From: Eubacterium sp.
GTDB taxonomy: Bacteria; Bacillota; Clostridia; Lachnospirales; Lachnospiraceae
Assembly (NCBI GenBank): GCA_017433825.1
Contig: JAFRGL010000013.1
Span: forward strand, 1 to 64,000
Direction: 5' to 3'
Length of the DNA stretch: 64,000 nucleotides
This document shows positions 1-64,000 of the stretch, piece after piece. The translations under genes were made by a program, and so were the position numbers. The stretch's first letter is position 1; each line of letters opens with the position of its first letter. A model generated the notes under the pieces. It made no database searches. It was given only the letters and a program-made list of their open reading frames with translations, and was not told the origin of the DNA.

Positions 1-180
1 CGCAGAAAGAAATATACCGAATATTCGAAGCCCGATTTCGGGTACCGCTCAAAGAGGGAGAGTTCTGTTGATCACAACTCTCCCTCTTTCGCTCGGAAAC
101 CTGGCATGGTAAGCGCAGTTTCCGCCCCTCATCGGTCTTCTTATCTTCGGTATTTCTTTGTCTGCTTGCTCCAATACGGC
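1..180 (+). repeat. Structured intergenic repeat, copy A (left end probably cut by the window edge)
   Basis: This copy shares conserved blocks with the copies at 252-480 and 63695-63940: GATTTCGGGTACCG at 33-46, GCCCCTCATC at 124-133 and TTGCTCCAATAC at 166-177. Between them lie a perfect 14-bp stem (51-64 with 76-89) around a loop resembling those of the other copies, and a second stem CGGAAAC/GTTTCCG (94-100 with 118-124). Bases 2-20 can pair with 147-165. The stem sequences differ from the other copies but stay paired, which points to a conserved fold. No coding potential is evident. Identity is unknown: a structured RNA or a small non-autonomous mobile element are both possible. Confidence 0.7.
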
Positions 181-251
181 CTCGTTCAGCACGGTTGATT
201 TCCGGCCGCAAACCGCCTGATTTGGGGTCCGCCCGGGATTGACAGGCAGCC

Positions 252-480
252 ATCCGGCAGAAAGAGCAGGCCGGGATTGGAGTAAGGCCATGAAAAATAC
301 AGCTGTCGGAAACGGCTGATGAGGGGCAAAAAGTTGCTTCCAGGCAATTCTTTTTGAGGCCTGCTGAGGCGAGTTGTCATCAGAGAACTCGTCGAATCAG
401 GCCGGTACCCGAAATCAGACGGTTTTGCAGCTGTATATTTTTCAGGCTGAAACGACCTGCCGGCCGTTCTTCTGCCGGAT
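252..480 (-). repeat. Structured intergenic repeat, copy B (inverted relative to copy A)
   Basis: Read on the minus strand, the core (419 down to 317) is almost identical to the copy at 63767-63866 and differs mainly in a hairpin loop. It has the GATTTCGGGTACCG block, a CGAGTT/AACTCG stem nested within GCCTG/CAGGC, a CAAAAAG/CTTTTTG stem and the GCCCCTCATC block. The outer arms at 252-274 and 460-480 pair through ATCCGGCAGAA and GGCCGG. It lies just past the stop codon of the PAP2 gene and converges with copy A. Function is unknown. Confidence 0.75.
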
Positions 481-44654: not shown

Positions 44655-44690
44655 ATGAAAAAGCACCGGGCGCTGCCCGGTGCCTTTTTA
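44655..44690. terminator. Bidirectional terminator with GCACCGGGC hairpin
   Basis: GCACCGGGC (44663-44671), loop GCT, GCCCGGTGC (44675-44683), with TTTTT downstream on the plus strand and AAAAA upstream. It serves the 61-residue gene and the convergent zinc-ribbon gene. The same hairpin sequence family recurs at 47755 and 50432. Confidence 0.9.
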
Positions 44691-47783: not shown

Positions 47784-47831
47784 TTTCTTTATCGCTTAGT
47801 TTAATGATTTGACTAAAAATCCGGTCTTCTT

Positions 47832-50288
47832 TTAGAAGCTGTGCTCCGTACGGGAAATCAGGTCGTTCTGCATCGCCTCGGTCATATCCACGAAATATGC
47901 GGAATAGCCGGCGATACGGACTACCAGGTTGTGGTAATCATCCGGATGCTCCTGCGCATCGCGGAGGGTCTCCACGCCTACCACGTTGTACTGAACTTCC
48001 ATGCCGCCGCCTTCGAAGAATGCCTTGGTCATGTCGCGCAGCTTCTCAACGCCTTCCTCACGGGAAAGGGCGGTCGGATGGATACGGATGTTGACAGCCA
48101 TGCCGCTCATGAAACGGCCGTTGTCCCAGGCAAGGGTGGAGTTGAATACGCCGGTGGGGCCGTTTCTGTCCATACCCTGTACCGGGCTCATGGCATCGGC
48201 GATCGGGGTGCCGGCCTTACGTCCGTCCGGGGTAGCCCAGGTGATCTCACCCTGCGGCACATGGTCGGAAGCGCCGAACATGCCGCAGCTGTAGCCTTCC
48301 GCACGGCAGGTTGAATAGCCCCTGGTCATGTTGTAGTACCAGTCAAGGACGTATTTCTGCTGCTCGTCGGCATAGGGATCGGCATTGCCGTAACGCGGGC
48401 ATTCGTTCAGGATTCTCTGACGGAGGGCTTCATACTCGGGGCCTTCCCAGTTGGCCAGAACGGCATCCAGAAGCGTCTTTGCGGAGCAGATCTTCTTGTC
48501 ATAAACGGCCCACCTGATGGCGGTGAGGGAGTCGCCGACAGTGGCTGTACCGGTAGCCGTGCCGCCGAAGTAATTGTACTTCGCGCCGCCTTCGGATACG
48601 TCCATGCCCTTTTCCATACAGCCGTCGGTGGAAATGGAAAGGTTCGGATAGCAGAACTTCAGGGGCTGCATATAGTCCGCGTAGTTGTTCAGGGTAATGG
48701 ACCATTCCATATAATACTTGGTGAGCTTCTCGAATGCCTTCTTCACGTCCTCGAAGGTCTCCATCTCATACAGATAGCCGGAACGCACCTCTTCCGGTCC
48801 CTGGGCCCCGTTCATCGGGTTGATGCCGTTGTTGATGGTCATCAGCAGGCAGATCGGCCACATAAGGCCGTTGTGGCCCATGGCTACGGCATTGGGCGCC
48901 GGATAGTCATTGCCGGAACCGGTAACTTCCTGACAGCCGATGAAGGCGAAGTTCCTGGCATCCTCCAGTTCCATCTTTCTCTCTCTTAAGATGGCGGGAA
49001 TGATGATGTCGTCATTCTGAAGCAGGGGCAGGCCGCCGACTCTCTTGGAGGTCTCAATGGCCAGGTTCCACAGCTCATCCGGGGTATCCTTGCTGATACG
49101 CAAGGAAATGGTGGGCTCATGCAGCTCCAGGCGGGCTTCCGCTTCCAGTACCATGTAGGTAACGGGGTTGGAGGATTCTTTGCCTGTCTTGGGATCGCAT
49201 CCGCCGATGGTGGTATGCTGGCCGATGTGACCGATACCGGCTGTCTGCGCGCCGGGGCCGAAGCCGCCGCCGTAGAAGATATTCAGCTTCAGGAAGAATG
49301 CGTCAACCAGCTCCTGGGCATGTTCTTCGGTGATGGTGCCTTCTTCCAGTTCTTTTTTCAGGTACGGCCAGGTGTACTGGTCGAAACGGCCGATGGAGGT
49401 AACGCCGGGGCCGTTGTTGAATCTCATGAGGACATTGTACAGCATATAATGCTGCAGGGCCTCCCAGAAGTTCCTGGGCGGGTTGTAGGCGATCCAGTCA
49501 AGGCTGTCAGCCATCATCTCGTACTCGGCCTTCTTTTCCGCATTCTCTTCCTTCGCGGCTTTCTCTCTGGCGATGTCGGCATATCTCTTGGTCAGGGTGA
49601 TGATGCCGTCGCAGGCAATGCATGCTGCGTTGTAGAAAATGTATTTTCTGATATCCTGGCCGAACACTTTGCCCTTATGCTCTTCCATCCAGTCGGAGGC
49701 TTGTTTGCGGATAGCCGCATAGCCTTTCCTCATAACATTCTGGAAGCCGGGCGTAAGGTGTCCGGGCATTGCCAGCAGTCCGAAGCCGCCCGGACGGCCG
49801 TAAGTGGTGGCGATGGTGGCGCTGAGTTCCTTAACGCCTTCGGGCTCATATGCCTGGGGCCTTACGCCAAGGGGGCTTGCCATCTGGATCTTCATCAGTT
49901 CGCGGAGGTCTTTCAGCTCTTCGGGGGAAACCGCCAGCTTCTGGTGTGAATACAGCGGATCCTCATCGGGAGCGTGATGCAGGCCGTCCTCCCAGATGGG
50001 CCAGGTGTTTTCGATGTCAACCATCAGCCATCTGATACCGTCGGAACCGCCCCAGTGCTTGTGGCCCAGATCGCCTACAAAAAACTCATCCTCTTCGATG
50101 TCCAGGGGAGCTCTTTCGATAATGTAGAGGTCCTCGGCAGCTTTCTGGATAACCGGCGGATAATTCTTGTAGATTTCCTGCGACTCGAATTTCAGGCGCA
50201 TCTTACCGGCATCCGCAATGATAAGCCTGTCACGGACTTTGACTTTCATTCTCGCGATACGCTCGGTATACGGTTTGAATTGATACAT
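47832..50288 (-). CDS. Glycyl radical enzyme (PFL/dehydratase-lyase superfamily), paralogue 1
   Basis: An 818-residue oxygen-sensitive enzyme. The active-site thiyl Cys452 lies in FIGCQEVTG, with Glu454 giving the GCxE arrangement of diol dehydratase, choline lyase and related eliminases and decarboxylases, and not the CC pair of true pyruvate formate-lyase. The radical Gly794 lies in VVRIAGYSAYF, 25 residues from the end. It is about 85-90 % identical by eye to the next gene, so they arose by recent tandem duplication. The ATG at 50288 (MYQFKPY) follows GAAAGGAAG; the longer frame to 50339 is rejected. The substrate is unknown. No activating enzyme is encoded in the window. Confidence 0.9.
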   Translation of the reverse strand: MYQFKPYTERIARMKVKVRDRLIIADAGKMRLKFESQEIYKNYPPVIQKAAEDLYIIERAPLDIEEDEFFVGDLGHKHWGGSDGIRWLMVDIENTWPIWEDGLHHAPDEDPLYSHQKLAVSPEELKDLRELMKIQMASPLGVRPQAYEPEGVKELSATIATTYGRPGGFGLLAMPGHLTPGFQNVMRKGYAAIRKQASDWMEEHKGKVFGQDIRKYIFYNAACIACDGIITLTKRYADIAREKAAKEENAEKKAEYEMMADSLDWIAYNPPRNFWEALQHYMLYNVLMRFNNGPGVTSIGRFDQYTWPYLKKELEEGTITEEHAQELVDAFFLKLNIFYGGGFGPGAQTAGIGHIGQHTTIGGCDPKTGKESSNPVTYMVLEAEARLELHEPTISLRISKDTPDELWNLAIETSKRVGGLPLLQNDDIIIPAILRERKMELEDARNFAFIGCQEVTGSGNDYPAPNAVAMGHNGLMWPICLLMTINNGINPMNGAQGPEEVRSGYLYEMETFEDVKKAFEKLTKYYMEWSITLNNYADYMQPLKFCYPNLSISTDGCMEKGMDVSEGGAKYNYFGGTATGTATVGDSLTAIRWAVYDKKICSAKTLLDAVLANWEGPEYEALRQRILNECPRYGNADPYADEQQKYVLDWYYNMTRGYSTCRAEGYSCGMFGASDHVPQGEITWATPDGRKAGTPIADAMSPVQGMDRNGPTGVFNSTLAWDNGRFMSGMAVNIRIHPTALSREEGVEKLRDMTKAFFEGGGMEVQYNVVGVETLRDAQEHPDDYHNLVVRIAGYSAYFVDMTEAMQNDLISRTEHSF

Positions 50289-50348
50289 AGCATTCTTCCT
50301 TTCTGTTCTCTTTATACTTTCATGCAAAATAAACAACACTCCGTTATT

Positions 50349-50377
50349 ACTATAATCTACTTTTTTTCATAATACAA
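50349..50377 (-). promoter_or_regulatory. Predicted promoter of glycyl radical enzyme gene 1
   Basis: Minus-strand TTGTAT (50372-50377), 17-base spacer, TATAGT (50349-50354), about 60 bases before the ATG at 50288. It differs in sequence from the promoter of the paralogue. Confidence 0.6.
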
Positions 50378-50431
50378 GATAATCCTGCAGCCGGAATACT
50401 CCAAATACGTCAGGGTATCTGCAGCACATGT

Positions 50432-50460
50432 AAAAAAGGCACCGGGCCGGGCCCGGTGCC
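50432..50460 (-). terminator. Rho-independent terminator of glycyl radical enzyme gene 2
   Basis: On the minus strand GGCACCGGG, loop CCCGG, CCCGGTGCC, then TTTTTT. It shares stem and flanks with the terminator at 47755-47783. Confidence 0.92.
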
Positions 50461-50507
50461 TTTCTTTGTCGCTTAGTTTAATGATTTGCCTTAAAATCCG
50501 GACTTCT

Positions 50508-52964
50508 TTAGAAGCTGTGTTCGGTACGGGAAATCAGGTCGTTCTGCATCGCCTCGGTCATATCCACGAAGTATGCGGAATAGCCGGCGATACGGACTAC
50601 CAGGTTGTGGTAATCTTCCGGATGCTCCTGCGCATCGCGGAGGGTCTCCACGCCTACTACGTTGTACTGGACTTCCATGCCGCCACCTTCGAAAAATGCC
50701 TTGGTCATGTCGCGCAGCTTCTGAACGCCTTCCTCACGGGAAAGGGCGGTCGGATGGATACGGATGTTGACAGCCATACCGCTCATGAAACGGCCGTTGT
50801 CCCAGGCAAGGGTGGAGTTGAATACACCGGTCGGGCCGTTCGTATCCATGCCCTGTACCGGGCTCATGGCGTCGGCGATGGGAGTGCCGGTCTTACGTCC
50901 GTCCGGGGTAGCCCAGGTAATCTCACCCTGCGGCACATGGTCGGAAGCACCGAACATACCGCAGCCGTAGCCTTCCGCACGGCAGGTGGAATAGCCCCTG
51001 GTCATGTTGTAATACCAGTCAAGGACGTATTTCTGCTGCTCGTCAGCATACGGATCGGCATTGCCGTAACGCGGGCATTCATGCAGGATTCTCTGACGGA
51101 GGGCTTCATTCTTCGGGCCTTCCCAGTTCGCCAGAACGGCGTCAAGCAGTTCCTTGCCGGTGCAGATCTTCTTGTCATATACTGCCCACTTGATAGCGGT
51201 CAGGGAGTCGCCTGTGGTGGCAGTACCGGTGGCTGTACCGCCGAAGTAGTTGTACTTCGCGCCGCCCTCGGATACGTCTTTGCCCTTTTCCATACATCCG
51301 TCAACGGAAATGGAAAGGTTCGGATAGCAGAACAGCAGCGGCTGCATGTAATCGGAATAGTTGTTCAGGGAGATGGACCACTCCATGTAGTACTTGGTGA
51401 GCTTCTCAAATGCCTTCTTGACATCCTCGAAGGTTTCCATCTCGTACAGATAGCCGGACCGTACCTCTTCAGGTCCCTGGGCACCGGTCATCGGGTTGAT
51501 GCCGTTGTTGATGGCCATCAGCAGGCAGATAGCCCACATAAGGCCGTTGTGGCCCATGGATACGGCATTGGGAGCCGGATAGTCGTTGCCGGAACCGGTA
51601 ACTTCCTGGCAGCCGATGAAGGCATAGTTCCTGGCGTCCTCAATCTCCATCTTTCTTTCCCTGATAATTGCAGGGATAATCAGGTCGTCATTCTGAAGCA
51701 GGGGCAGGCCGCCGACTCTCTTGGAGGTCTCAATGGCCAGGTTCCACAGCTCATCCGGGGTATCCTTGGATACACGTAAGGAAATGGTGGGCTCATGCAG
51801 TTCCATACGGGCTTCGGCTTCCAGTACCATGTAGGTAACGGGGTTGGAGGACTCTTTGCCGGTCTTGGGATCGCAGCCGCCGATGGTGGTATGCTGGCCA
51901 ACATGGCCGATGCCTGCGGTCTGGGCCTGCTTGCCGAAGTTGCCGCCGTGGTAAATGTTCAGTTTCAGGAAGAATGCGTCAACCAGCTCCTGGGCATAGT
52001 CCATGGTAATGGTTCCTTCTTCCAGATCCTTCTTCAGGTACGGCCAGGTGTACTGGTCGAAACGGCCGATGGAGGTAACGCCGGGGCCGTTGTTGAATCT
52101 CATGAATACGTTATACAGGGTGTAGTGCTGCAGGGACTCCCAGAAGTTCCTGGGCGGATTGTAGGCGATCCAGTCAAGGCCGTCGGCCATCTTCTCGAAC
52201 TCAGCCTTCTTCTCGGGATTTTCTTCCTTCGCGGCCTTCTCCTTCGCAATGTCGGCATATCTCTTGGTCAGGGTGATGATGCCGTCGCAGGCGATGCATG
52301 CTGCGTTGTAGAAGATGTACTTCTTGATATCCTGTCCGAATACTTTGCCCTTGTGCTCTTCCATCCAGTCGGAGGCCTGCTTGCGGATAGCCGCATAGCC
52401 CTTCCTCATAACGTTCTGGAAGCCGGGGGTAAGGTGTCCGGGAGGCAGAAGCAGTCCCCACTCCATCGGACGTCCGTAGGTGGTGGCTACGACAGATCTC
52501 AGTTCCTTCAGGCCTTCGGGCTCATAAGGCTGCGGTCTAACCCCTAAGGGGCTTGCCATCTGAGCTTTCATCAGCTCACGGAGAGCTTTCAGTTCTTCAG
52601 GAGATACAGCCAGCTTCTGGTGGGAGTACAGCGGATCCTCATCAGGAGCGTGATGCAGTCCGTCTTCCATAATGGGCCAGGTGTTTTCAATGTCAACACG
52701 AAGCCACATCATGCCGTCGGAGCCGCCCCAGTTCTTGTGGCCGAGGTCGCCTACAAAGTACTCATCTTCTTCGATATCCAGGGGAGCTCTTTCGATAACA
52801 TAGAGATCCTCAGCGGCAGCCCTGATTACCGGCGGATAATTCTTGTAGATTTCCTTGGCTTCGAATTTCAGACGGAGTTTGCCGGCGTCTGCAATGATGA
52901 CATGTTCACTGACTTTGACTTTCATTCTTGCGATACGCTCGGTATACGGTTTGAATTGATACAT
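50508..52964 (-). CDS. Glycyl radical enzyme (PFL/dehydratase-lyase superfamily), paralogue 2
   Basis: An 818-residue paralogue of the enzyme at 47832-50288, with the same catalytic positions: Cys452 and Glu454 in FIGCQEVTG, and radical Gly794 in VVRIAGYSAYF. Differences cluster in surface stretches such as residues 160-185 and 340-360 (for example YHGGNFGKQAQTAG for FYGGGFGPGAQTAG), leaving the barrel intact, so both copies look functional. It has its own promoter and terminator. AGAAAGGAA precedes the ATG. Reaction unknown; dehydratase, C-N, C-S or C-C lyase or decarboxylase chemistry are all possible in this clade. Confidence 0.9.
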   Translation of the reverse strand: MYQFKPYTERIARMKVKVSEHVIIADAGKLRLKFEAKEIYKNYPPVIRAAAEDLYVIERAPLDIEEDEYFVGDLGHKNWGGSDGMMWLRVDIENTWPIMEDGLHHAPDEDPLYSHQKLAVSPEELKALRELMKAQMASPLGVRPQPYEPEGLKELRSVVATTYGRPMEWGLLLPPGHLTPGFQNVMRKGYAAIRKQASDWMEEHKGKVFGQDIKKYIFYNAACIACDGIITLTKRYADIAKEKAAKEENPEKKAEFEKMADGLDWIAYNPPRNFWESLQHYTLYNVFMRFNNGPGVTSIGRFDQYTWPYLKKDLEEGTITMDYAQELVDAFFLKLNIYHGGNFGKQAQTAGIGHVGQHTTIGGCDPKTGKESSNPVTYMVLEAEARMELHEPTISLRVSKDTPDELWNLAIETSKRVGGLPLLQNDDLIIPAIIRERKMEIEDARNYAFIGCQEVTGSGNDYPAPNAVSMGHNGLMWAICLLMAINNGINPMTGAQGPEEVRSGYLYEMETFEDVKKAFEKLTKYYMEWSISLNNYSDYMQPLLFCYPNLSISVDGCMEKGKDVSEGGAKYNYFGGTATGTATTGDSLTAIKWAVYDKKICTGKELLDAVLANWEGPKNEALRQRILHECPRYGNADPYADEQQKYVLDWYYNMTRGYSTCRAEGYGCGMFGASDHVPQGEITWATPDGRKTGTPIADAMSPVQGMDTNGPTGVFNSTLAWDNGRFMSGMAVNIRIHPTALSREEGVQKLRDMTKAFFEGGGMEVQYNVVGVETLRDAQEHPEDYHNLVVRIAGYSAYFVDMTEAMQNDLISRTEHSF

Positions 52965-60579: not shown

Positions 60580-62976
60580 TCAAAGCTCGTGGCTTGTCCT
60601 GGAAATCACGTCTTCCTGCACGCCGGGGGTCAGGGTTGTGAAATAAGCCGAATAGCCGGCCACCCGGACGATGAGGTCCCGGTACTGCTCCTTGTTTCGC
60701 TGGGCATCCAGAAGGGTTTCCTTATCCACCACATTGAACTGGACATGCTTGCCGCCGTTTGTCAGGTACGTCCTGATAATGGAGGAAAGCTTCTCCACGT
60801 CGGCATCGGTCTGCAGTGTGGAGGCGGAGAATTTCATGTTCAGCAGGGTGGACATGTACTCATCCTGGTTGATGGACATGGCAGACTGCAGTACGGCCAG
60901 CGGGCCGCAGGTATCGGTGCCCTGCACCGGAGAGGTGGTGCCGTCCGCCAGGATATCGAAATCCATCCGGCCGTCCGGTGTTGCCTTCATGGCCTTCCCC
61001 GCCGGGGAATACGCCGTAATGGAGATGCCCGAGGGCACCATCGGCGCGTCATAGATGGTTTTGGTCTTTTTGGTCAGTTCCGCGATATCATGCCAGATGC
61101 GGCGGGCGATTTCATTGACCTCCGGGTCGTTGTTGCCGTACTTCGGGGCTTTCAGGCAAAGCTTCCGCAGGTCTTCCTTCCCTTCCCAGTTGGTATTTAC
61201 CGCGGTAAGGAGTTCGGAAGCGGATACCTTTTTCTCGTCGAACACCAGCTTTTTGATGACTTCCAGGGAGTTGATGACGTTCTGGATGGCGCAGATATTG
61301 CACAGCGCGCCGTTTTCGTAAATCATCTTCCGGGAAATAATCGGCTTCCCCGCATTTACCGCGTCATAGGCCCAGATGGATAAAAGCGCATCCTGCTCGT
61401 ACTGCCGGAAATAATCCAGCTGGATGTTGTGCTCCTCGCAGATAAGCTGGATAGCCCAGTCGAACTGCTTTATGAGCGCCTGATAGAAATCCTCGTACGT
61501 TTCAAAGTCTTCGAAGCGTCCGGTGTGCAGCGCCACATCGTCGCCGGTATTCGGGTTGACGCCGTTGTTCATGGCACTCTGCAGGATCATGGGCGTGATG
61601 AACATGCCCACGGAGTTCTGGTGGGAACGCCCGGTAACCTGAAGGTCCAGACAGCCCGCCATGGCATACTCCCTGGCGTCCTCCAGCGGCACGCCCCTGC
61701 CGGTCAGGAAACTGATGATGGACTTGTCGGAGACGAAGGCCGGCATGCCGATGCCGGATCTTACGCATTTCACCGCCCGTTCCAGAAGCTCCTTCGGGGT
61801 CTTGTCGGATACCCGTAAGGTAATTGTCGGGTGCGGGGTGCGCACCTCTTCCGCCGCGTCCAGCCAGATAAAGCTGAATTCATTGGAAACTTCGCGGCCG
61901 TCCCGGTCCTCGCCGCCGATCATGAAATTCTGCCACCGGGCCATGCCCGCCCATTTCTCTCTTTGGGCCTTGCCGCCGCCCACGCTGTTGTATTCCATGA
62001 TTTTGATGCGCAGCAGTTCGCACAGCTCCAGGGCTTCCTCACGGGTAATCAGGCCTGCGTCCAGATCCTTTTTGTAGTAGGGATACATGTACTGGTCGAT
62101 TCTGCCGCCGGGAAGCGTCGGGTTCGCGATGGAGAAATAATAGAAAAGGAAAAACTGCATGGCCTCCCGGAAGGTACGGGCCGGCTTCCTGGGCACCCGG
62201 GCACAGATTTCCGAAATCTGGTAAAGCTCCGCCTTCCGCTTTTCATCCGTTTCCGCTTCCGCCATTTCCTTCGCCAGCGCACTGAACCGGTCGCCGGTGC
62301 GGCACAGGGCTTCCATCTGGATGACGGACGCCTCAAAGAAATCGTATTTTTCCATGTCATCGGAGGAATGGAAGCGGATTTCGCTCATGGCTTTCTTCAC
62401 TTCCTCAATCTTCGCCTCCATGCCGGTGGAAATGATTTCGCCGTACATCGGCACATACAGTCCCAGCCCGCTGAAATTGCCCCAGGGTGCACCGGCACCG
62501 CCGTAGCCTCTGCCGGCTTTCTTGGATTTCCACGCGGGGCACAGGATTCCCTGCTTTACGAAGGGCCAGATGCGGTCGTCGGTATAATACCGGCTGCGGC
62601 GTTCGCTGTTGGTGCGGCCGCGGTCGCGCCAGTATTCATTGACCTTGCCCAGCTTCTCTTTGGCATCCTCCGGTATCTCTATATCATTGCTGTTCAGCAT
62701 TTCCTCCAGGTCATCCTCGTCCCAGGAGGGCCCGTTGTAATCCGCCTCCATGCCCATATATTTCGACGCGAAATTCCCCACCAGGAGCTCGCCGTCATTG
62801 ATGAAAATGGTTCTTTTATCCAGGTATGCCGCCATGCCGTAAGCCCTGCGGACGATATGTGGGTCTCCGTCGTGCTTTTTGTAAACGTCGATAACAATGT
62901 CCGCAGCCTCGGTGCATACGGTATATTTCTTCTCCGCCCGCATGGCAGCAAGGCGTTTCTGTACTCTGTCGGTCAT
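60580..62976 (-). CDS. Glycyl radical enzyme with GCxD active site, third and divergent
   Basis: A 798-residue enzyme. The thiyl Cys442 lies in AMAGCLDLQVTGRS, where Asp444 stands in place of the Glu of GCxE enzymes. The radical Gly774 is in VRVAGYSAYF, 25 residues from the C-terminus. It is only distantly related to the tandem pair at 47832-52964, so it probably acts on another substrate. AAAGGAG lies 6 bases before the ATG at 62976; the longer frame to 63012 has no ribosome site. Followed by UroD-like gene 2 in the same direction. No activase is present in the window. Confidence 0.88.
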   Translation of the reverse strand: MTDRVQKRLAAMRAEKKYTVCTEAADIVIDVYKKHDGDPHIVRRAYGMAAYLDKRTIFINDGELLVGNFASKYMGMEADYNGPSWDEDDLEEMLNSNDIEIPEDAKEKLGKVNEYWRDRGRTNSERRSRYYTDDRIWPFVKQGILCPAWKSKKAGRGYGGAGAPWGNFSGLGLYVPMYGEIISTGMEAKIEEVKKAMSEIRFHSSDDMEKYDFFEASVIQMEALCRTGDRFSALAKEMAEAETDEKRKAELYQISEICARVPRKPARTFREAMQFFLFYYFSIANPTLPGGRIDQYMYPYYKKDLDAGLITREEALELCELLRIKIMEYNSVGGGKAQREKWAGMARWQNFMIGGEDRDGREVSNEFSFIWLDAAEEVRTPHPTITLRVSDKTPKELLERAVKCVRSGIGMPAFVSDKSIISFLTGRGVPLEDAREYAMAGCLDLQVTGRSHQNSVGMFITPMILQSAMNNGVNPNTGDDVALHTGRFEDFETYEDFYQALIKQFDWAIQLICEEHNIQLDYFRQYEQDALLSIWAYDAVNAGKPIISRKMIYENGALCNICAIQNVINSLEVIKKLVFDEKKVSASELLTAVNTNWEGKEDLRKLCLKAPKYGNNDPEVNEIARRIWHDIAELTKKTKTIYDAPMVPSGISITAYSPAGKAMKATPDGRMDFDILADGTTSPVQGTDTCGPLAVLQSAMSINQDEYMSTLLNMKFSASTLQTDADVEKLSSIIRTYLTNGGKHVQFNVVDKETLLDAQRNKEQYRDLIVRVAGYSAYFTTLTPGVQEDVISRTSHEL

Positions 62977-63141
62977 GGCAATCTCCTTTATCTGCAATGA
63001 TTGAATTTGCAAATATTATACTACAAAATAATTTTCCTGTGTTATAATTCTTAAATAAGATTCGGACGTAAGACAGTCTTTCGTCCCTGCCATGCCGATA
63101 CGGCATTACCTGTTGATTCAGAAAATGAATGGAGGTTTTTT

Positions 63142-63660
63142 ATGAACAGTTTTCTGGAACTTGCCAAAGAGAGATATTCCGTGAGGGATTTTAAGCCGGA
63201 CGCAGTGGAAGATGAGAAAATCGCGAAAATTCTGGAAGCCGGCCTGGCCGTGCCCACGGCCCGCAACAACCAGCCGCAGAAAATCTATGTGCTGAAAAGC
63301 GAGGAGGCGCGTAAAAAGCTTGCGGAGCTGTCGCCCTGCACATTTGACGCACCGGTCATCTTCATGGTGGGCTATGACAGCAGTCTGGCCGCCGTGGGAA
63401 GAATTGCCGAGGATTACAGCTTCGGCGATATTGATTCCGCCATCTGCATGACGCATTTGATGCTGGCGGCCTGGGATCTGGGGCTGGGCTCCTGCTGGGT
63501 CGGCCATTTCATGGCCGATGAAGTGGAGAAGGCCTTCGCCCTGCCGGAGAACATCCGTATCCGGGCCCTGCTGCCCGTCGGCTACGCCGCAGACGGCTCC
63601 GTTCCCGGCCCGATGCATTCCGCCTCCCGGAGCATGGCTGACGTCGTGACCGAATTATAA
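63142..63660 (+). CDS. Nitroreductase-family FMN oxidoreductase
   Basis: A 172-residue flavoprotein. The start RYSVRDFKPDAVEDEKI is the FMN phosphate-binding motif of the nitroreductase family, followed by AGLAVPTARNNQPQKIYVL and the late WDLGLGSCWVGHF. Length matches the short, homodimeric NAD(P)H-dependent subgroup. The substrate is unknown. GGAGG precedes the ATG. It is divergent from the third glycyl radical enzyme; a TATAAT lies near 63042 in the shared intergenic region, without a clear -35 box. Confidence 0.9.
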   Translation: MNSFLELAKERYSVRDFKPDAVEDEKIAKILEAGLAVPTARNNQPQKIYVLKSEEARKKLAELSPCTFDAPVIFMVGYDSSLAAVGRIAEDYSFGDIDSAICMTHLMLAAWDLGLGSCWVGHFMADEVEKAFALPENIRIRALLPVGYAADGSVPGPMHSASRSMADVVTEL

Positions 63661-63694
63661 ACACTATGCAGCAATCACTCTTTCTGACATGAAC

Positions 63695-63940
63695 ACCGGC
63701 TGAACCGGCAGAAAATGCGCCAGTAGGTCGCTTCGCTGTAAAAAACATGCCGCCGCAGAAAAGTCTGATTTCGGGTACCGGCCTGATTCGACGAGTTCTC
63801 TGATGACAACTCGCCTCAGCAGGCCTCAAAAAGAATTGCTCCGTGGCAACTTTTTGCCCCTCATCATCCTTTCCTGACAGCGGCGTTTTTAATCGCGCTT
63901 GCTCCAATACTGGCGCATTTTTTCTGCCGGTTCAGCCGGT
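63695..63940 (+). repeat. Structured intergenic repeat, copy C (complete, with long terminal arms)
   Basis: A 246-base element bounded by inverted arms (63695-63725 and 63908-63940), about 31 of 33 positions paired, differing by two A/T in a run. Inside are a GTAAAAAAC...GCCGC/GCGGCGTTTTTAA pairing, GATTTCGGGTACCG, the nested GCCTG and CGAGTT stems, CAAAAAG/CTTTTTG with variable loop, GCCCCTCATC and TTGCTCCAATAC. The core is nearly identical to copy B. The remaining 60 bases to the window end are AT-rich and show no gene. Confidence 0.8.
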
Positions 63941-64000
63941 TGATTATGCCATAAAACGAATGATAACTAACATATAATTTACATATTACAATACATATTC

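Follow-up and report, generated by a model that had tools for sequence, protein, structure and literature searches.

Hairpin repeats behind stop codons in Lachnospiraceae: a candidate non-autonomous mobile DNA family with covarying stems

The 64,000-nucleotide stretch of Eubacterium sp. DNA analysed here (the window) carries at positions 63695-63940 a multi-stem repeat whose stems change in sequence between copies and stay paired. The question raised by this locus is whether such a fold is kept as an RNA or as a DNA structure. A preliminary description had offered two identities, a new non-coding RNA or a structured non-autonomous element; the latter fits better, and the RNA option is less well supported. 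Our reading, held with slightly more confidence than doubt, is that the copy belongs to a new non-autonomous mobile family of palindromic DNA in Lachnospiraceae, which lies next to stop codons and keeps its stems by DNA copying. The units of this family are giant hairpins, single or joined as tail-to-tail composites, and many of them stand at unrelated genes of one genome.

The copy at 63695-63940 (246 nt; all its parts are given on the plus strand) forms a rod of outer arms, an internal loop, a middle stem, an inner stem and the hairpins P2 and P3. The near-perfect inverted arms reported for it were recovered in a self-match of the window, in which 63695-63725 and 63908-63940 form an inverted repeat with a 94% match, and both arms fold. 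The fold of the whole copy had a z-score of -10.9 as RNA and -10.4 as DNA, with 0 of 200 shuffles equal in each case. The 5' side of the outer internal loop is the motif AGGTCGCTTC (63725-63734), which reads AGGTCGYTTC in 15 of 15 full copies of the own genome, and its 3' side is CTCCAAT (63902-63908), invariant in the 15 own copies. The 5' strand of the middle and inner stem (63735-63766) varies in sequence among copies with its pairing kept. The block GATTTCGGGTACCG (63767-63780) follows, with 19 exact occurrences in the genome versus 0 for a reversed control, and its first part pairs with GCCCCTCATC (63856-63865, placed by comparison of copies) in a stem that is interrupted here and perfect in other genera. 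Between these blocks lie P2 (63780-63825), with a TGAT-type loop and an ATTC/CTCAG internal loop, and P3 (CAAAAAG...CTTTTTG, 63827-63856), as placed in the core alignments. Comparison of P2 and P3 between copies bore out the earlier statement that the stems vary yet keep pairing. The named blocks do persist, and they are conserved, but GATTTCGGG and CCCCTCATC are not simply single-stranded as had been proposed: they oppose each other where the inner stem is broken, and in other genera this stem is uninterrupted, perfect and covarying.

The element lies on the same strand as the upstream host gene, a member of the nitroreductase family (63142-63660, plus strand), whose stop codon ends 34 nt before it. 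Between 62900 and 64000, no promoter-like site was found, and the search for intrinsic-terminator-like sites (a short-loop G+C-rich stem with a T run) gave 0, with a mean of 1.2 in shuffles. The whole window was without an Rfam match at gathering cut-offs, in agreement with the view that no known RNA class is recognisable; below threshold, three snoRNA matches with E of 4-6.3 appeared in 63600-64000. CTGATGA has a resemblance to a hammerhead or C/D-box sequence; the motif does not keep this form across genera, and such a reading was rejected.

The preliminary description had compared this element with copies at 1-180 and 252-480. Both are real, but the first is truncated, since the window opens with the first base of contig C12, and the two form one tail-to-tail pair. 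Its left half (1-181, plus strand) is of another type with a long P2 and has its core at 38-129 (E 7e-10), and its right half (about 254-478, minus strand) is of the same type as the query copy, 81% identical to it, with a core at 322-412 (E 3e-16). With the query core at 63771-63861, these are the three cores found in the window by the core model R2. The same tail-to-tail pairing was seen again in the genome and in other genera. In the own genome, blastn returned 22 matches, two of which are the query element's own arms. The covariance model R1, made from 15 own copies, gave 25 matches and R2 gave 23; four truncated own copies had been left out before alignment A1. Many contig ends of this genome (C4, C8, C12, C16, C18, C21, C23) fall within copies of the element; the assembly therefore probably breaks at these repeats, and the copy numbers are lower bounds.

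The suggested covariance-model search did reveal homologues in other Lachnospiraceae, with a patchy occurrence among the other genera. The family is present in 2 of 7 genomes of the genus, in 7 of 200 of the taxonomic family (R1) and in 5 of 392 of the order (R2), each count including the own genome; all five in the order belong to the same taxonomic family, and the searches of 200 and 392 genomes used stricter filters. Bearing genomes hold 3 to 95 copies each by R2, with 23 in the own genome and 4, 59, 16, 22, 15, 4, 3, 43 and 95 in the others. A 33-base P2 pattern, run against one genome per species for 84,980 species, returned 24 hits: 11 in Clostridia bacterium INTA.CYC.029, 10 in Lachnospiraceae STE_209, 2 in Faecalicatena faecalis AGMB00832 and 1 in Clostridiales VE202-21, with no other genome hit. 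Three patterns had no match in viral contigs, and blastn gave none in plasmids and phages (one G528 element was among the plasmid queries). A search of the open-licence literature, judged by titles and abstract openings, found no description of this hairpin-repeat family, which is apparently previously undescribed.

For the anatomy across genera, 40 distinct units were analysed from among the 197 R2 matches in STE_209, INTA and VE202-21. A unit measures about 250-330 nt. The genera have the internal-loop motifs and P3 in common, together with a P2 that carries the TGAT-type loop and the ATTC/CTCAG internal loop; the terminal sequences differ between genera. The arms in STE_209, INTA and VE202-21 are longer, nearly perfect and different from locus to locus, and end boxes GGACG/GGCTGG occur in the three genera. 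A GGACG box was present in 35 of the 40 units and lay 88-112 nt from the core in 29 of these 35, a spacing which indicates that arm length is held and arm sequence is not. Two local additions were also observed. A G-rich unit of about 75 nt with GCGTGCCA...TGGCACGGGGCTTG stands 3' of many STE_209 copies (L074, L098 and others), sometimes in tandem, and an additional hairpin of about 20 nt (AGGCTCCCGCCT) is inserted in the P2 loop at L081, L084, L086 and L077 of genome G073.

Functional RNA is usually proved by covariation, and a comparison with shuffled alignments showed it very strongly here. The alignment of 51 cores, 50 of them distinct, had 87.4% of its cells paired versus 58.8% in shuffles, all 31 of 31 modelled pairs showed double changes, in 431 cells altogether, and the covariation score was 0.666 versus 0.175; none of 500 shuffles reached any of the five measures. 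RNA stems, however, usually accept G.U pairs. We therefore aligned each 5' arm with its reverse-complemented 3' partner and counted the isolated mismatches. Among 49 elements from outside the window, 4778 Watson-Crick positions stood beside 50 G.U, 45 A.C and 51 transversion mismatches; the 15 own copies gave 1121 Watson-Crick, 2 G.U, 5 A.C and 12 transversion. The same held in the hairpins: P3 of the non-own copies had 468 Watson-Crick, 1 G.U, 3 A.C and 8 other cells (own P3, with 116, 10, 13 and 11 respectively, was left out as out of register), and P2 had 327 Watson-Crick, 5 G.U, 11 A.C and 9 other. Nine young right-hand units of genome G528 differed in their stems by 13 distinct A.C, 6 G.U and 11 transversion changes, with 4 two-sided Watson-Crick changes and one each of a gap, a two-sided G.U and a two-sided transversion. 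G.U is thus no commoner than A.C in these stems, and the claim that the pattern marks a fold selected as RNA was not supported.

A global version of the mismatch count leaned to G.U. For 48 elements it gave 40 G.U, 26 A.C and 41 transversions when three flanking pairs were required, 51/42/65 with two and 61/56/115 with one. A 6S RNA control treated by the same method gave 3/1/10, 20/4/31 and 45/20/127 for three, two and one flanking pairs, a weak contrast. Judged by eye, a single conserved T.G position in the STE_209/INTA copies seems to account for much of the G.U excess. Because the global version leans to G.U, our confidence in the mobile DNA reading was slightly lowered.

The balance of one-sided and two-sided changes was also compared. 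Two older G528 clades differed by 19 two-sided Watson-Crick changes versus 3 one-sided changes and 1 gap. The family cores had 35 one-sided versus 431 two-sided changes, and 29 6S sequences of relatives had 91 and 96, a comparison in which the 6S alignment rests on a plain RNAalifold structure. One unit, L087, has arms identical at 102 of 102 positions; where its relatives have the conserved 5' loop block, L087 carries an exact complement of its 3' strand, and the orientation of its end boxes is reversed with respect to the core. The arm identity together with the lost loop is what arm-to-arm template switching would leave.

Template switching has been put forward as a mechanism by which RNA hairpins arise and persist (PMC8794818, available in part), and the likeness lies in perfect stems restored by reverse-complement copying. 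The difference is that the accessible part of that report concerns RNA genes, mostly rRNA, and the present case is a dispersed repeat family. From the mismatch spectrum and L087, the covariation, although genuine, does not on its own amount to evidence that an RNA is selected, and as far as the alignments can tell it does not look like RNA selection. The survival of loops and internal loops through arm copying suggests that these parts are selected for something. The family passes the covariation test, yet its mismatch spectrum resembles that of DNA inverted repeats, which makes it a case on which to test how selection on an RNA can be told from upkeep by template switching. If our reading is true, it is a natural case in which overwhelming covariation alone does not prove a functional RNA.

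Placement at stop codons was then considered. In G528, an ORF of 90 aa or more faces 24 of the 30 ends; the stop codon lies within 3 nt of the junction in 19 of these 24 and within 25 nt in 23, and 11 of the 19 close stop codons are completed by the element's two terminal bases (AA, once AG). Among the 40 units of the three other genomes, 27 have an ORF stop at 95-160 nt from the core on its 5' side and 2 have one on its 3' side; the inverted L087 is one of these two. This distance window was set after the distances had been seen; without it the count is 30 versus 13 of the 40 units, and in most of the 13 the ORF ends within an arm. Moreover, some of the 40 units are halves of one pair, so not all are independent. 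When a GGACG box follows an ORF, it lies at most 32 nt from the stop in 23 of 25 cases. Of the 21 units of the own genome with an upstream ORF, 19 have the nearest one on their own strand; most units there lie between convergent genes, where orientation is uninformative. A single upstream gene family was ruled out, because 18 of 20 upstream proteins had Pfam families of many kinds. This placement, mostly in one orientation and in up to 95 copies per genome, points to a new targeting mechanism or a 3'-end function.

The main rival is accordingly a structured putative 3'-UTR RNA that has spread to many genes and would stabilise, regulate or yield a small RNA by processing; its conserved P2/P3 loops would bind a protein, and template switching would merely tidy the stems. 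We regard it as doubtful, and it stays the main rival because of orientation: the 27 versus 2 placement behind stops is what such an RNA, with its fixed orientation, would be expected to show. Conserved loops, internal loops and arm length beside variable stems, the strong covariation and the fold z-score as RNA are also in its favour. On the other side, G.U tolerance was absent in the first arm alignment, the P2/P3 counts and the young copies, the upstream genes are unrelated, an upstream gene is missing for some units (in many cases one half of a composite), and neither a promoter-like nor a terminator-like site was found in 62900-64000. An Rfam-type structured RNA would share the covarying multi-stem fold and conserved loops with this family, but no Rfam family matches and the mismatch spectrum is not RNA-like.

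Evidence on mobility came mainly from G528, which has 15 delimited composites of 293-1191 bp without genes, with inverted ends AAATTCCGGTTTGT and dispersed over different loci. Twenty-nine of the 30 unit ends match another end at 77-99.7%, and one matches none. The outer ends are A-rich/T-rich, the composite interiors inspected have no long ORF, and a search for end pairs in this genome found only short ones and none longer. No consistent target duplication was seen at the G528 junctions inspected. The two ORFs that flank one G528 composite enclose, in genome G575, a 108-bp palindrome whose ends are related and touch both stop codons, which indicates a site common to both genomes with a different interior. 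Since the orthologous G575 site is occupied by this shorter palindrome, a true empty site was not found. Flanks of six G528 sites matched genome G573 (G573/G528 loci L270/L228, L273/L199, L300/L194, L304/L215, L308/L186 and L312/L224), and the interiors differ at several shared sites; L276, L298 and L306 had none among the matches listed. The L304/L215 match is 100% identical over 2203 bases, and the matched loci are otherwise 82-92% alike; contamination or recent transfer is possible there. Further palindromes with other ends and divergent interiors were seen behind stop codons in the L226/L180 region and at L183 of G528.

These shared sites bear on a second rival, in which the repeats are host-selected bidirectional 3'-end insulators or terminators that expanded, diverged in place and had their interiors recombined, with mobility minor. 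The G528 composites occupy the gap between two convergent stop codons, the G575 site and several G573 sites are the same with different interiors, and the A-rich/T-rich ends would suit such a role. We consider it improbable in view of the patchy presence, the single units between tandem genes, the separate terminator-like sequence seen by eye before some copies, and the negative terminator search around the query element. An ordinary MITE family, in which one insertion sequence still mobilises copies derived from it by deletion, agrees with the inverted ends, high copy number and inspected composite interiors without a long ORF, but is very improbable given that the ends differ completely between genera and the arms even between loci of one genome while the internal hairpins are common, that G528 has no longer end pair, and that the wide +/- interval inspected contains host-type ORFs.

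That interval, 2.8 kb at L279 of genome G026, was the one inspected for an autonomous parent, and a parent there was rejected on reading its ORFs. No transposase for the elements was found. Mobilisation in the RAYT/REPIN manner was set aside as well: Y1 genes (PF01797) matched in 7 of 11 genomes and in none of the bearing genomes G148, G154 and G222, so they are inconsistent among bearers, and 0 elements lay within 14 Y1 loci. An origin of the arms as inverted host coding sequence was likewise rejected. Lenient local alignment entered the gene in 12 of 26 copies, 7 of them at 56-62% identity, taken as noise, and 5 reaching 3-35 nt into it at 69-76%.

In the mobile DNA reading, pairing would be maintained at the DNA level by arm-to-arm copying during replication (template switching). 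P2, P3 and the loop motifs would be kept by selection through a putative trans-acting factor that recognises the folded strand, and recognition would occur as the element is copied to new sites. The copies behind stop codons may have been delivered there or may survive best there. A more specific version is tentative: a recombination or transposition system might read the folded single strand via the P2/P3 motifs and deliver the oriented, non-autonomous hairpin to stop-codon edges, with the stems covarying by DNA copying. Such a system, if real, would be a structure-read, stop-codon-targeted counterpart of attC/IntI or REPIN/RAYT with a putative new enzyme, and the terminal bases of the hairpin would often complete the codon T|AA.

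On the features tested, membership in REPINs, attC sites and intrinsic terminators failed, and MITEs fit partly. REPs are 20-40 bp according to the portion available of PMC3733652 and are tied to RAYT genes in that of PMC3116915. REPs and REPINs resemble the present family as non-autonomous high-copy extragenic palindromes with inverted doublets, here the tail-to-tail pairs of several genera; the units here, however, are about 250-330 nt, contain internal hairpins and are oriented at stops, and no Y1 gene tracks or flanks them. REP units also bear a GTAG or CGTC tag, and their small size is by itself enough to set the present units apart. The attC sites, 57-141 bp with core sites RYYYAAC/GTTRRRY in the accessible part of PMC3053210, likewise have variable sequence with conserved structure, a position behind genes, and conserved unpaired bases and end boxes. 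The present units differ in size (246 nt in the window), in their GGACG/GGCTGG boxes and in lying behind ordinary chromosomal genes. In our reading, the family resembles REPINs and attC sites in logic and belongs to neither. With MITEs it shares gene-less, dispersed copies with inverted ends; it differs in that no consistent target duplication was seen at the G528 junctions inspected, the ends are not family-wide and the inner fold is large and conserved, and the end-pair search in G528 gave short pairs and no parent element.

Elsewhere in the window, two 300-nt stretches within 47831-52749 are repeated 2676 bases apart (97% and 80% identical), which makes this a local gene-sized duplication. 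Terminator-like palindromes, similar to one another, were seen at 44658, 47756 and 50433.
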